From IMG/VR virus record IMGVR_UViG_3300005663_000149, positions 1 through 31,559 of that record: a DNA stretch of 31,559 bases. The stretch is one strand, 5' to 3'. Below, piece by piece: positions 4,356-29,343 of this stretch. The position numbers were made by a program, and so were the translations under genes. Under the pieces are notes generated by a model. That model saw only the letters and a list, made by a program, of their open reading frames with translations, searched no databases and had not been told where the DNA came from. The DNA comes from a virus. Numbering within the stretch: the first letter of the stretch is position 1; the number at the start of each line of letters is the position of its first letter.

Positions 4356-5230
4356 TATGTCAGCCCAACCACGATAAAGGTTCGACGGTCGCTCTCCCAC
4401 TGATCGTTCACGGTCGAACCGTCCGTTCTTCCCTGCATTTTGAATATACGGTTTCCAGCCGAAAGCCCTGTGGCTACCCACACATTTGTATGCAATTGAA
4501 TTGCGGCCCCAACAAGACTTTCCTGCCCCGCCTTATCGGAACCGACCTCGGCCACAGCATCTACCATAACTCTACTTTCGATTAACGATGCAAGATCAGC
4601 AACAAAAGACCCACGGAAAATTATCAAGGCTGCCCCGCCCTGTATATTTACTGTCTTGGTCATCTCAGGAATATCTTTATAGGTGCTTAGGACATCACTG
4701 ATTGTCGGATCGGCCGTACTTCCAACCACCACACTCATATCAAGATGACTGGCTGTTTCATCGGCATCAACCTCGGCGGGTTCCTTCGCCTCAATGGATG
4801 TCCGCAGAGCATCCGATGTGAACATTCGGGCCAGGGAGTCGGTTTTCTGCTTCCCCAAAGCCACGGCACCATCTAAAATCGACCCCTCGATCACCTTGTC
4901 AGTCACAACAACCCGCGACAAGTCCCCAGCTCCATCAAGTCCCAGAAACCCCCTCTTTCCTCCGGTCAGGGGGCTTCCAACTCCATCCGCTGCAATCGCG
5001 TCGGTATCTTCCAGCAATCCCGCTACTGTCAGTTTGACGACCGTAGTTCCAATCCCTTCCGTTCTGCCTTGAATGATTGTCGCAGAAGCAATTTGTCCCA
5101 ACAGGGTAAGAGTGTTTTGCAGCTTCTTATCATATTCCAGCAGTTTTTGGAGCGCCGTCCAGGTAAGCATTCCTTTTTCGTCCACAAAGCGGGAGCGACT
5201 AGGTGCAAAGGTGCTGGGGTTAGTGCTCAT
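4355..5230 (-). CDS. Putative tail/fibre-adaptor structural protein
   Basis: 291 aa. ATG at 5230 overlaps the stop of the gp10 homologue (ATGA). The N-terminal segment RFVDEKGMLTWTALQKLLEYDKKLQ resembles short N-terminal anchoring helices of phage head or tail fibre proteins. The middle (65-150) contains TVVKLTVAGLLEDTDAIAADG and LSRVVVTDKVIEGSILDG, suggesting stacked beta repeats. The C-terminal ~110 residues look like a beta-rich knob with INIQGG-type strands, ending in DRRTFIVVGLT. It occupies the slot of P22 gene 26 (tail needle), next to gp10, but shows no long trimeric coiled coil, so I do not call it a needle. A tail-tip or fibre protein is the best guess. Confidence 0.5.
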   Translation of the reverse strand: MSTNPSTFAPSRSRFVDEKGMLTWTALQKLLEYDKKLQNTLTLLGQIASATIIQGRTEGIGTTVVKLTVAGLLEDTDAIAADGVGSPLTGGKRGFLGLDGAGDLSRVVVTDKVIEGSILDGAVALGKQKTDSLARMFTSDALRTSIEAKEPAEVDADETASHLDMSVVVGSTADPTISDVLSTYKDIPEMTKTVNIQGGAALIIFRGSFVADLASLIESRVMVDAVAEVGSDKAGQESLVGAAIQLHTNVWVATGLSAGNRIFKMQGRTDGSTVNDQWESDRRTFIVVGLT

Positions 5231-6669
5231 GCTCCGTTCCCCGGTGTCAGGTCAAGGTACGCATCAATAATTCTCCACGGCACTGCATCGCTGGCGCTGA
5301 TCTCGTAAATCCGGTCACGGGATCGTCCTAAGCGCAGCCACCTTGCGCGCTTGCTATACTCACCCGCTTTCCCTACTCCCCTGTTGTGGGTGTTTGACCA
5401 TGTGTGCCCGCCGTCATCAGACCAGCGCAAACCCATCATTGGGTCGCGTGGATTTCCTTCGCCATCAAGTAGCGGCGGGGTTGGCCCCACTCCCATCTCA
5501 AGGGCAACGTGGAGTTCATGGTGGAAGTCCCAATTGCTTTCTCTAGAAATATGCGGTGCGCGCCGAACCCGGCGAATCGCACTTCCGTCATCGTCAAAGA
5601 TGGAAATGGACATCTCATAGACTTTATTGCTCTTCCAATCGCCGACTAGATGCTTTCCGAAATTGAAGGTGTGGTTGCGGCTGTGGTGCGCCTCAAAAAC
5701 GCCAAGATTCAGAAACGCTCGCTCATGCCACATATTTGACGCCACATCAAAAACCCAAGTCGCCGATGCCGTTGGGAAAAGCAGGACGTAAAAACTATGG
5801 CCTTGATCCTGGTAAGAATAGCCGATGGCGTCATTGATGGTTGTGTAGCCCTGCATGGCAAACTCGATAGCGTGGTTGCTCACGCGCTGGGGCGTATAGC
5901 CTGCGGCCCGCCATACCATCGCGGCTCCGCGTTCATCCCCGCCCAGCCAGAACAGCGTGTTGTCCAGTCTCGCGGGCGAATGAGTTGCAACCATTCCCTT
6001 CTCGATTATCGCACCAGGGATCACATCGAAGATTTGAGCACTGCCTGAATCGAAGTACACGACACTCTTGGTTATCCCAAAAAGCCACAGCTCCCGGTGG
6101 TCGGCCTTGAATCCCACGATGTTGTCAGGAAACACTGAAACCGTGATGATCTGTAAAGCGGGCCACGAGGTTGCATCCACAACAGTTGAAATTCTGAAGG
6201 TCTGCGAATCCTTAATCAGCGCCAGGAAGAACCCGTCAACGTACTCAACCATCGAAACATTCGTAAGTGTCCCAGAGGCGATTTTTGTCAATCCATTTGT
6301 TATCAGATTCAGAACGTGCGCCCTCCCGCCGCTGGAAATGAGTAGTTGCGTCGGACTAGCGGCCATCGAGACGGGCAGGCTATCACCTGTTACCGTTCCA
6401 CGCAAAACCTTGGTTCCGTCTGCAAAAATCTCGTACAATTTTGCCCCAGCCACAGCGAAAGTCCGTGCGTTGATGGTATGAATCCCCCGCACCGAAGCGC
6501 CTGTGAGTGCCACAAAGAGTTTCAGCCCGGGCGTAGGATAGAGCACCAGATTAGACTTCCCTGCTCCCGTCTCAATTAACTCTGGATACCAGTTCATCGT
6601 AAAATCAGCACTGGCGTTGGGAGACTGTGATCTGTAGGTGCCTGCGAGAGCTAGGGGGTGACGAGCCAT
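5227..6669 (-). CDS. P22 gp10-like packaged-DNA stabilisation / tail hub protein
   Basis: 480 aa, close to the ~470 aa of P22 gp10. ATG at 6669 has an AGGAG site 9 nt upstream. The N-terminus (YRSQSPNASADFTMNWYPELIE, then YPTPGLKLF) is the family signature. Repeated WLGGDERG / VWRAAGYTPQRVSNHAIE and WVFDVASNMWHER strings suggest a beta-propeller. The C-terminal MGLRWSDDGGHTWSNTHNRGVGKAGEYSKRARWLRLGRSRDRIYEI is the most recognisable element. In P22 this protein binds under gp4 and closes the portal vertex after packaging. Here it is separated from its usual neighbour gp4 by the plus-strand HNH insertion, which starts immediately upstream of its ribosome site. Confidence 0.85.
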   Translation of the reverse strand: MARHPLALAGTYRSQSPNASADFTMNWYPELIETGAGKSNLVLYPTPGLKLFVALTGASVRGIHTINARTFAVAGAKLYEIFADGTKVLRGTVTGDSLPVSMAASPTQLLISSGGRAHVLNLITNGLTKIASGTLTNVSMVEYVDGFFLALIKDSQTFRISTVVDATSWPALQIITVSVFPDNIVGFKADHRELWLFGITKSVVYFDSGSAQIFDVIPGAIIEKGMVATHSPARLDNTLFWLGGDERGAAMVWRAAGYTPQRVSNHAIEFAMQGYTTINDAIGYSYQDQGHSFYVLLFPTASATWVFDVASNMWHERAFLNLGVFEAHHSRNHTFNFGKHLVGDWKSNKVYEMSISIFDDDGSAIRRVRRAPHISRESNWDFHHELHVALEMGVGPTPPLLDGEGNPRDPMMGLRWSDDGGHTWSNTHNRGVGKAGEYSKRARWLRLGRSRDRIYEISASDAVPWRIIDAYLDLTPGNGA

Positions 6670-6671
6670 TG

Positions 6672-6680
6672 TGCTATACT
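6672..6680 (+). promoter_or_regulatory. Candidate extended -10 promoter (TGC TATACT) upstream of the permuted tRNA
   Basis: TGC followed by TATACT (6675-6680) is an extended -10 with five of six consensus bases. No good -35 is seen 16-18 nt upstream. The predicted start would be 6687-6688, where the first purine is G6688, the first base of the swapped tRNA 3' half. Caution: the same bases hold the antisense of the gp10 ribosome site (AGGAG at 6679-6683 on the minus strand), so the motif could be coincidental. Confidence 0.4.
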
Positions 6681-6687
6681 CCTGTCC

Positions 6688-6787
6688 GGGGCAAGACGGA
6701 CGTTCGACTCGTCCCTGAGATAGCGCTTCCTAGGTCAACAAAGCGTGCGGTACTCAGTAGCTCAACGGTAGAGCAGCCCCATTTCAT
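6688..6787 (+). tRNA. Candidate circularly permuted tRNA (3' half before 5' half), loop reads as Glu (UUC)
   Basis: The elements appear in this order. GGGGC (6688-6692) fits anticodon stem 39-43. AAGAC (6693-6697) is a canonical 5-nt variable loop with G46 and C48. GGACG-TTCGACT-CGTCC (6698-6714) is a perfect T arm with a TTCRANY loop. CTGAG (6715-6719) is acceptor 3' strand. A spacer follows (6720-6752). CTCAG (6753-6757) is acceptor 5' strand, TA (6758-6759) fits positions 8-9, GCTC-AACGGTA-GAGC (6760-6774) is a perfect D arm with G18G19, A (6775) fits position 26, GCCCC (6776-6780) is anticodon stem 27-31, and ATTTCAT (6781-6787) is a loop with U33, UUC and A37. Both cross-half helices (CTGAG/CTCAG and GGGGC/GCCCC) pair 5 of 5. 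The outer acceptor pairs need a bulged A6720 to form (TA 6751-6752 with TA 6721-6722). The spacer can fold as GCGCTT (6723-6728) with AAGCGT (6741-6746). No CCA is encoded. Function is unproven. Confidence 0.6.
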
Positions 6788-6800
6788 CTTAGAAATCTCC

Positions 6801-6829
6801 TTGACACAGTTTTACGCATATGCTACCGT
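6801..6829 (+). promoter_or_regulatory. Candidate promoter (TTGACA, 17 bp, TGC TACCGT) for the HNH cassette
   Basis: A perfect -35 TTGACA (6801-6806) lies 17 bp from TACCGT (6824-6829), which keeps the TAnnnT core and carries an extended -10 TGC at 6821-6823. The predicted start is ~6836, one base before the ATG of the next gene. It is the only strong sigma70-like signal seen on the plus strand here and would drive the two plus-strand genes independently of the phage late operon. Because the start falls at the start codon, the mRNA may be leaderless. Confidence 0.6.
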
Positions 6830-6836
6830 AGCATCC

Positions 6837-7097
6837 ATGCCAAACACTCTTATGACAGTAAAGGAAGTCTGCAAAGAGTTCGCAGATAAAATAAATGCGA
6901 TTCCCGACAAGCGCGTTCGGAGAGCCATAGTTGAGTCGTTATCTGGAAGCCTTTTCATGGGGCCAGGAAGCAAAGCACTCCAAACCTCAAAGGCTGCACG
7001 CAGCCATGCTTCAAAAATCATGCACGCCAGTATGACAGCGGAAAAGAGACGCCAGAGAGCTAGGCGGGCTGCAAAAGCACGCTGGGCCAAAAAATGA
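6837..7097 (+). CDS. Small basic protein encoded upstream of the HNH endonuclease
   Basis: 86 aa. No Shine-Dalgarno precedes the ATG at 6837 or the in-frame ATG at 6852; a promoter is positioned to start the transcript at about 6836, so leaderless translation is likely. The N-terminal half (MTVKEVCKEFADKINAIPDKRVRRAIVESL, described in pieces: helix 6-20, helix 24-36) is helical. The C-terminus is strongly basic (KRRQRARRAAKARWAKK), suggesting nucleic-acid binding. The stop overlaps the HNH start (ATGA), so the two are co-translated. I do not recognise a named family. A DNA-binding partner or regulator of the endonuclease is inferred from basicity and coupling only. Confidence 0.6.
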   Translation: MPNTLMTVKEVCKEFADKINAIPDKRVRRAIVESLSGSLFMGPGSKALQTSKAARSHASKIMHASMTAEKRRQRARRAAKARWAKK

Positions 7098-7636
7098 AAG
7101 AGACTTGGAAACCAGTTGTCGGGTATGAAGGACTTTACGAAGTCAGCAACCTGGGCCGAGTAAAAAGAATTGCCCCGAGGATCGACGGGAGGAATTATAG
7201 CTTTGGGATGCTTCATCCGACCCCCAAGCAGAACCGAAAAGAAAGAAATCCTGGCACTTATTTTTATCTCAGCTTGCACAAGAATCGAAAACAAACAGTG
7301 CGCCAAGTTCATCAGGTAGTTGCAGCAGCCTTTCTTGGTCCTTGTCCACCAGGAAAGCAAATAAACCACAAAAACGGAAACCCAGGCGATAACAGACCGA
7401 GGAATTTGGAATATGTGACCCCATCGGAAAACCTTGAACATGGATTCCGTATATTGAAAACAAGGAACCATGCGGGGTCCAGAAATCCGCACACCAAACT
7501 TACCGAGGGTGATGTGCTTAAAATTCGCCATCTTCGTAGGCATGGACTTTCCCTCACAAATATCGCCGAGCGATTTTCGGTCACAAAAACAGTTGTGCAG
7601 TATATTGGTAAGCGAAAAACTTGGACTCATATCTAA
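7094..7636 (+). CDS. NUMOD4 / HNH homing-type endonuclease
   Basis: 180 aa. Residues 2-27 are a NUMOD4 module (ETWKPVVGYEGLYEVSNLGRVKRI in two pieces), which targets DNA in phage homing enzymes. Residues 72-116 hold an HNH_3 core with VHQVVAAAFLG (H73), INHKNGNPGDN (N91, H92, N94) and NLEYVTPSENLEHG. Residues ~136-175 (TKLTEGDVLKIRHLRRHG, LTNIAERFSVTKTVVQYI) form a helix-turn-helix specificity domain. The length is typical. It lies on the plus strand, opposite all neighbouring structural genes, between gp4 and gp10 which are normally adjacent, marking it as a mobile insertion. No intron was found around it, so it looks like a free-standing homing gene. It converges on the gp4 stop with only 4 nt between. 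Confidence 0.9.
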   Translation: MKETWKPVVGYEGLYEVSNLGRVKRIAPRIDGRNYSFGMLHPTPKQNRKERNPGTYFYLSLHKNRKQTVRQVHQVVAAAFLGPCPPGKQINHKNGNPGDNRPRNLEYVTPSENLEHGFRILKTRNHAGSRNPHTKLTEGDVLKIRHLRRHGLSLTNIAERFSVTKTVVQYIGKRKTWTHI

Positions 7637-18345: not shown

Positions 18346-18759
18346 CTAGTTCAGTGCCTTCTTGTCGTCTCCGACGATGTTCTCCCGGCGGGAGCGATGT
18401 TTCTCCATCCACTCCGGGTCACTGATTCCGTGGTGGGAGTTCATATCTAGCGCCATCACCATCTCCATTCGGCCGTGCTCGTCCAGCAACTCCCAGACTT
18501 CTTTCAAAACCTTCTCAGGATGCGCGGAAATGTACTTCCGTTCTGCTCGACTGTGTTCTCCCTCACGACTGCCCGGGCCGGCAGACTGAAACCGTCCCAG
18601 GCGGGCAACCAGTAGGGCGGCAATCCTCTTGGCCGGGAGAATCTTAAGTGTTTCTGTGATCGACTGCCCTAAAGAATTGAACCAGGAGAAGGTTACATTC
18701 CCATCCTGGTAGATTGCCTCACCGGAATTATGGATGTGCGGAAACTTCGACTTCATCAT
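18346..18759 (-). CDS. Hypothetical phage protein
   Basis: 137 aa. ATG at 18759 overlaps the preceding stop (ATGA). N-terminal beta part (GEAIYQDGNVTFSWFN), then helix (SITETLKILPAKRIAALLVARLGRF), a charged link and a helical C-terminus (KVLKEVWELLDEHGRMEMVMAL, DPEWMEKHRSRRENIV). No Cys or enzyme motif. Not recognised. Its place between terminase and portal is a variable spot in P22-like genomes. Confidence 0.65.
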   Translation of the reverse strand: MMKSKFPHIHNSGEAIYQDGNVTFSWFNSLGQSITETLKILPAKRIAALLVARLGRFQSAGPGSREGEHSRAERKYISAHPEKVLKEVWELLDEHGRMEMVMALDMNSHHGISDPEWMEKHRSRRENIVGDDKKALN

Positions 18760-28479: not shown

Positions 28480-29343
28480 CTACACTCCACAGACTCCTTC
28501 ACACTCAGTAGTGAATCCGAGTCCAAGTTGGAGTTCCCGTGGATTAAGCCGACCATTGAACTTGATTTTCTCCAGCGGCACACACGACCTGTGGACGTAG
28601 AGCTTCTGATCTACCTTGCGGTTCACGACCCGGCCTGGGATTCTCAAGGCGTTGTCTATCGCAACCGCGCGCGCCCAATCTACTGGGTTCTTCTTGATGG
28701 CCTGCCACTCAGAATCATTGTGATAAGGGCAAAAGACACAGGCCGAACGGGGAACCTGATGCGGGACGTTGCCAATCTCTTTCAGCCATGTGAAGCAATC
28801 AGCCCGAGTCATGGCCTTGTCCATGAGGGGAAACCGTAGATCCATCCACTTCTTGTTGCGATTGGGGTTGTTTCGCATACGAAGTGCCCGCCCAGCCTCT
28901 TCAATTGATATGCCGATGTACTGGACGATCACCACGTCTTTGGGAATCCTCTGGCGCGGCCTCAACCCAATTAACTCGTACCGGATCGCCCGTTCGATCA
29001 CGTCAATCTTGTATTCCTTGGAACATTGCCGGCGAAGCATGCCCTCCCGACCACCCTCAACTATTGCCGTATAGGCAGGAATCGAAGCGAACCGCTGCTT
29101 CGTGCTGTTCTCGCCCCGCATGAGATCATCACCTAGCCGACTCTTCTGGCGAATCCAAATGGGCGCACCGCCTACAGCTTGGAGCCACTCCAAATGTTGA
29201 TAGACGGCCACTGGCTCCTCGCCTGTGTCTGCGAAGATGGCGCAATCAAGGGGGGGCTTGAGGAGGCCCTGAGCAAACATCAGGTACAGCGTTGTACTCT
29301 GAACGCCAGCACCTAGCGACAGTACGTGATACTCAGTACTCAT
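28480..29343 (-). CDS. PAPS reductase-like PP-loop (adenine nucleotide alpha-hydrolase) enzyme
   Basis: 287 aa. ATG 29343 overlaps the previous stop (ATGA). PP-loop: LSLGAGVQSTTLY (8-20), a variant of SGGxxS. Further family motifs: CAIFADTGEEPVAVYQHLEWL (33-53), RRQCSKEYKI (C106) and RSACVFCPYHNDSEW (C201, C204), plus C182. Cysteines this placed are typical of PAPS-reductase-like phage enzymes and DndC relatives that bind a Fe-S cluster or zinc. A true assimilatory role is unlikely; sulfur or adenylate chemistry on nucleic acid is possible, but no other dnd gene is in the window. Confidence 0.8.
   Translation of the reverse strand: MSTEYHVLSLGAGVQSTTLYLMFAQGLLKPPLDCAIFADTGEEPVAVYQHLEWLQAVGGAPIWIRQKSRLGDDLMRGENSTKQRFASIPAYTAIVEGGREGMLRRQCSKEYKIDVIERAIRYELIGLRPRQRIPKDVVIVQYIGISIEEAGRALRMRNNPNRNKKWMDLRFPLMDKAMTRADCFTWLKEIGNVPHQVPRSACVFCPYHNDSEWQAIKKNPVDWARAVAIDNALRIPGRVVNRKVDQKLYVHRSCVPLEKIKFNGRLNPRELQLGLGFTTECEGVCGV

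Follow-up and report, generated by a model that had tools for sequence, protein, structure and literature searches.

In a stretch of viral DNA of 31,559 nucleotides (positions 1 to 31,559 of IMG/VR record IMGVR_UViG_3300005663_000149, hereafter the window) we identified a 93-nt tRNA-like module on the + strand (6688..6780). A held-out covariance model, Rfam and the minimum free energy (MFE) fold all describe it as a circularly permuted cloverleaf of the Y-RNA/YrlA type. We consider it likely that this element is a minimal tRNA mimic of the Y-RNA type that stands alone, that is, the effector module of the bacterial Y RNA YrlA without its Ro60-binding stem. While the tRNA-mimic plan of YrlA is known, a module that stands alone, with neither Ro60 nor the stem that binds it, is unusual.

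The module begins with GGGGC (6688..6692), the 5′ strand of the closing stem and the equivalent of anticodon-stem positions 39-43, followed by the variable AAGAC (6693-6697). The T arm, GGACG-TTCGACT-CGTCC (6698..6714), has its stem strands at 6698-6702 and 6710-6714 and its loop at 6703-6709; T54-A58, T55 and C56 are present. It is followed by an acceptor-like hairpin (6715..6757), in which CTGAG (6715-6719) pairs with CTCAG (6753-6757) over 5 bp and, after a bulged A, the helix is extended by UA/UA. This hairpin is capped by a 33-nt insert containing another helix and carries no CCA. The following part (6758..6775) comprises TA at positions 8-9 (6758-6759), a D arm, GCTC-AACGGTA-GAGC, with stem strands at 6760-6763 and 6771-6774 and the loop AACGGTA between them, and A26 (6775). 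Finally, GCCCC (6776..6780; positions 27-31) forms the 3′ strand of the closing stem. All of these parts lie on the + strand. The T arm, the D arm, the complementarity of the acceptor and anticodon stems and the standard spacing had been noticed by the first-pass annotation, and both the sequence and the MFE fold place every one of them where it had put them.

The MFE fold of 6684-6800 consists of exactly the four helices proposed, closed by GGGGC/GCCCC. In a 200-nt context, the pairs of the named helices have probabilities of 0.70-0.98, with 0.70 for the closing stem. The folding-energy z-score of the module is only -1.7; folding energy alone would not make the module stand out and is a poor criterion here. 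The tRNA core positions U8, A14, G18G19, A21 and T54-A58 are all present, and 19 of 19 core pairs are intact together with the loop signature positions. The Levitt pair would be A15-C48, which is non-canonical. In the order of transcription, the T arm is followed by the closed acceptor-like hairpin and then by the D arm, all within one closing stem. The RNA as transcribed is thus modelled as a closed four-way junction in which the acceptor end is a hairpin and the free ends occupy the place of the anticodon stem.

We compared the module with random sequence using a descriptor made up of a T arm, an acceptor of at least 5 bp, a D arm with a GG loop and a closing stem of at least 5 bp. The null consisted of 754.5 Mb of order-1 Markov sequence with the dinucleotide composition of the window. 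With loose spacing, nine matches were obtained, corresponding to ~7.5e-4 expected per window, and with the canonical tRNA spacing seen in the module there were none in the 754.5 Mb. The same descriptor matches the window exactly once. These results confirm that the module is real and not a product of chance. The first-pass annotation had estimated a chance of one in a million; the Markov null upholds its conclusion but not the figure, which ignored the search space and G-U pairs.

An Rfam search of the window returned YrlA (RF02553) as its sole match, at 6690-6778 with 26.5 bits, covering model positions 23-85 of 114. This is below the curated cut-off of 69 bits. All matches in Acidobacteriota and phages miss the cut-off as well and, because these include matches beside TROVE genes, the cut-off does not discriminate here. 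YrlA matches with weak E-values occur in control genomes too (E. coli, B. subtilis), and those adjoining TROVE genes were taken as the reliable ones. To gather modules of the same plan, we drew on viral contigs (among the matches listed) and on genomes belonging to the same class as a Bryobacterales MAG (Acidobacteriota). This class was chosen because the MAG is the only bacterial genome contig found with a relative of the head-closure protein encoded next to the module. As the scan of viral contigs for a T arm followed by a D arm yielded mostly tandem-tRNA junctions, a structural filter was added; counts from a second, looser pattern scan of viral contigs are to be read as "at least".

A covariance model was built from 15 YrlA-type modules of phages and Acidobacteriota, with the window excluded. 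In the alignment of these 15 modules the four helices are kept, with 94.6% of cells paired. Of the 21 pairs, 17 show changes on both of their sides, in sequences that were partly selected for pairing; shuffled and slid versions of the alignment pair far less. On the window, the held-out model matched 6688-6780, with exact ends, at 54.3 bits (E 1.9e-14), and the second-best match reached 13 bits. The related tRNA-free phage loci of the control set gave no match at E<=0.01. The junctions of adjacent tRNAs in tRNA arrays score up to ~53 bits with the same model. The score alone therefore leaves room for a relic of tandem tRNA genes, which is why the absence of tRNA halves on both sides of the module, discussed below, matters.

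YrlA, as seen in its crystal structure (6CU1), can be superposed on tRNA once a circular permutation is allowed for (PMC11472068). Like YrlA (RF02553; 6CU1), the module runs from closing stem through T arm, acceptor-like hairpin and D arm back to the closing stem with tRNA spacing, so that all parts of the tRNA-like plan of YrlA are present. Both also have GUAGCUCAA...GGUAGAGC and a UUCGA core. Unlike YrlA, which has a short loop there, the module closes its acceptor hairpin with the 33-nt insert. In YrlA, the tRNA-like domain binds PNPase and the basal stem binds Rsr/Ro60, and the RNA is a substrate of DusA and TruB (PMC8394870). A long stem for Ro60/Rsr was not found at the module, since its flanks pair at the level of shuffled sequence (z +1.1 and +0.25), whereas the flanks of several Ro60-linked modules reach z-scores of -2 to -5. 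The GNCGAA type of sequence, which is the Ro-binding motif, was not found at the module either; it is also missing from many genuine Y RNAs and is thus uninformative. In addition, neither the window nor the 44.4-kb contig of the same phage contains a match to a TROVE gene, the Ro60/Rsr gene. Because these two defining features of YrlA, the Ro stem and the Ro60 neighbour, fail, the module is not a complete YrlA; it resembles the YrlA effector module and probably works alike. With YrlA as the only Rfam match and the held-out model matching end to end, the suggestion of a tRNA mimic or decoy comes closest among the earlier readings.

Where they can be judged, the modules of this plan are Y RNAs. 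In L032, a phage record, the module gives a full-length YrlA match of 42.6 bits and is followed at a distance of 70 nt by a TROVE/Ro60 gene; TROVE matches are also found close to modules in L008, L034, L061, L050 and L055. Among the Acidobacteriota genomes tested that have a YrlA match, 13 of 16 have a TROVE match, mostly within ~2 kb of the RNA. Acidobacteriota is the likely host lineage of the phage. The RNAs of these six phage records are phage-encoded and share the layout of the window module, but they adjoin a Ro60 gene and several have strongly pairing flanks, and the window module has neither. Ro60-related genes have been reported in jumbo phages (PMC7824862, PMC7765460). A further ORF beside a YrlA-type module, L006:242-1804 (-), appears by eye to encode a divergent Ro60/vWA-like protein with a DxSxS-like motif. 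It has no Pfam match and aligns poorly with the L032 protein, and no relative of it was found in the window or in the 44.4-kb contig of the same phage.

YrlA-type modules were also observed within phage tRNA arrays. In the 27.7-kb record L281, a permuted tRNA-like module (1754-1823, +) with an 8-bp acceptor closed by a GATA tetraloop lies exactly between tRNA-Pro (1679-1750) and tRNA-Gly (1832-1903), and the record contains no TROVE gene. Other modules in such arrays are L178:828-896 (+), with the same RNA in L224, L260 and L278, and L210:11589-11662 (-), L068:5592-5683 (-), L027:4116-4188 (-) and L072:7248-7322 (+). None of these overlaps a called tRNA, and their records have no TROVE match. 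It is possible that the modules in tRNA arrays without TROVE form a class of orphan phage tRNA mimics.

In the window, the module, a small ORF and a homing endonuclease, all on the + strand, interrupt a minus-strand cluster of virion genes. The insert is bordered by the gene for a P22-like head closure protein, Hc3 (5227..6669, -; phrog_578, 1e-103). Downstream of the module lie an ORF call for a small basic protein (6837..7097, +), with no match in Pfam, PHROGs or PADLOC and a sole match in viral contigs that belongs to the same phage, and a NUMOD4-HNH_3 homing endonuclease (7094..7636, +; Pfam HNH_3 7e-16, NUMOD4 5e-10; PADLOC homing endonuclease 2e-16). We considered and rejected the idea that the endonuclease and the RNA travel together, as no module lies close to any of the six other HNH relatives. 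Seven nucleotides before the module, a weak extended -10-like sequence can be read, TGCTATACT (6672..6680, +), which overlaps the complement of the ribosome-binding site of the minus-strand head-closure gene. A consensus scan gave no promoter at 6672..6680, and neither a clear promoter nor a clear terminator was found for the module. A TTGACA with a possible extended -10 can be read between the module and the small ORF (6801-6829). An operator-like inverted repeat, ATGCTA-CCG-TAGCAT (6820-6834), overlaps this possible promoter of the small ORF.

A search for the module at this locus covered one Bryobacterales MAG as well as 80 related viral loci, and found it only in the same phage. In one relative of 84% identity (L075), the slot is taken by a different gene, which is homologous to window 18346-18759. 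Searches of phage records for nucleotide similarity to the region gave short chance matches only. Because the L075 slot differs and the other relatives examined are without the module, the module is probably a recent, accessory acquisition. The covariation in related phages to which the first-pass annotation had pointed is not available for this copy, as there is no homologue at the same locus.

The first-pass annotation had described the element as a circularly permuted tRNA-like gene with a Glu anticodon that normal gene finders would miss. ARAGORN indeed finds no tRNA in normal order in the window. After rotation of the sequence and addition of CCA, the tRNA is complete and ARAGORN calls it tRNA-Glu(ttc), but the call is produced by the rotation itself, and the 7-nt "anticodon loop" results from the choice of breakpoints. 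The heptanucleotide in question, ATTTCAT (6781-6787), is no more than the stretch that follows the closing stem on its 3′ side, and it is unclosed in the transcript; instead, it forms the start of a small flanking hairpin (ATTTC-ATCTTA-GAAAT, 6781..6796, +, MFE). Circularly permuted tRNA genes occur in red algae and some archaea, where tRNA processing enzymes cut and join them into a real tRNA. As in those genes, the 3′ half precedes the 5′ half in the module; unlike them, it has an acceptor closed as a hairpin that lacks CCA, and its transcript has no anticodon loop. Between the halves we found no free acceptor end, be it CCA or an addition site, and the MFE pairing continues into the insert, so that an acceptor of 5-7 bp with a bulge is sealed by the 33-nt hairpin. 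Among the ORFs examined, no tRNA-processing or ligase gene was recognised, and the tRNA splicing endonuclease is not known from bacteria. What holds of the earlier description is that the element is circularly permuted and tRNA-like; maturation into a functional tRNA-Glu by cleavage and end-joining has next to no chance of being correct. The statement that no phage example had been accepted applies to permuted tRNA genes only and not to the layout, since phage-borne YrlA has been reported (Sim and Wolin 2018, cited in PMC7765460). Where phage tRNA arrays hold tRNAs in tandem, the junctions between them can resemble this pattern, and the module could accordingly be the remnant of a tandem tRNA pair that has kept just its inner halves, as had also been proposed. 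We regard such a relic as very improbable. Neither outer half is present, and the one upstream would need to overlap the start of the head-closure gene (6669), which lies 19 nt upstream of the module. Downstream of 6780 there is no T arm, and CTGAG is not followed by CCA. Moreover, both lost halves would need to end exactly at the closing stem, and the scanned parts of this phage yielded no tRNA genes.

Two further explanations were weighed. The module lies on the same strand as, and directly upstream of, the + strand ORFs, and might thus belong to the 5′ UTR of the transcript of the small ORF and the HNH gene and control its processing or expression in cis, for example by being recognised by RNase P or by a protein that binds tRNA. 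This is quite improbable, as the TTGACA and possible extended -10 at 6801-6829 would give the small ORF a start of its own, the six HNH relatives of other phages are without such a module in their vicinity, and elsewhere the same type of module stands alone. A former Y RNA of the host or of a phage that has lost its Ro60 gene and Ro stem and is drifting without function seems rather unlikely. The likely host lineage and other phages have YrlA together with TROVE, the window copy has neither the Ro stem nor Ro60, the A15-C48 pair is unusual and the module is absent from relatives, all of which would suit a degenerate copy. On the other hand, the core pairs and the loop signature are fully intact, and neutral drift would soon break some of them.

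If the element is a stand-alone Y-RNA-type tRNA mimic, the module would be transcribed from the + strand and its RNA would fold, unprocessed, into the four-way junction, with the T loop and D loop forming an intact tRNA elbow and the acceptor-like arm sealed by a hairpin. RNAs of the YrlA type function as they are, so that no splicing endonuclease is required. With no free acceptor end, no CCA and no anticodon, aminoacylation would not be possible. An intact elbow combined with a sealed acceptor and no anticodon would let the RNA bind elbow-reading proteins while keeping it out of translation. Proteins recognising the tRNA elbow may thus bind the module in trans. During infection, the module might then be a competitor of tRNAs for the host nucleases that target them. 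Alternatively, it might, like YrlA, recruit PNPase or tRNA-modifying enzymes or keep them occupied. Both action as a decoy and occupation of these enzymes fit the modelled anatomy. We infer the transcription of the module, its protein partners and its benefit to the phage.

The tRNA-like domain of YrlA escapes cleavage by the Salmonella anticodon nuclease and has been proposed as a competitive inhibitor of it (PMC7790460). Phages counter tRNA-cleaving defences with RNAs of their own, e.g. the T5 tRNA-Lys against PARIS (PMC11455837). The module may have a comparable role in conflicts over tRNA, with the difference that genuine tRNAs replace the cleaved ones, whereas the RNA of the module could not be charged. 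We tentatively consider it possible that a Y RNA has been stripped by the phage and that its tRNA-mimic module is used without Ro60 as a decoy for nucleases or elbow-binding proteins. Because similar orphan modules sit in the tRNA arrays of other phages, phage tRNA decoys of this type may be a widespread class.

Our results suggest that a mid-sized phage can carry the tRNA-mimic part of a Y RNA on its own and separate from Ro60. Finding a permuted tRNA-like gene in a phage is therefore no sign that bacteria splice tRNAs. Orphan modules are missed by tRNA gene finders and score below the Rfam cut-off. They offer a concrete way to test the tRNA-like domain of YrlA against anticodon nucleases, a question raised for Salmonella YrlA (PMC7790460).

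Some minor observations concern the rest of the genome and its assembly. In the non-structural part of the genome, window 28480-29343 (-) encodes a phosphoadenosine phosphosulfate reductase-like protein (phrog_424). The translation of the first ORF of L289, at the contig end, ends in LSLIHISE, which looks like translated sequencing adapter reached by read-through. Homology between the ORFs of the two contig ends (L289 and L290) suggests that the genome is nearly complete and was redundantly assembled.
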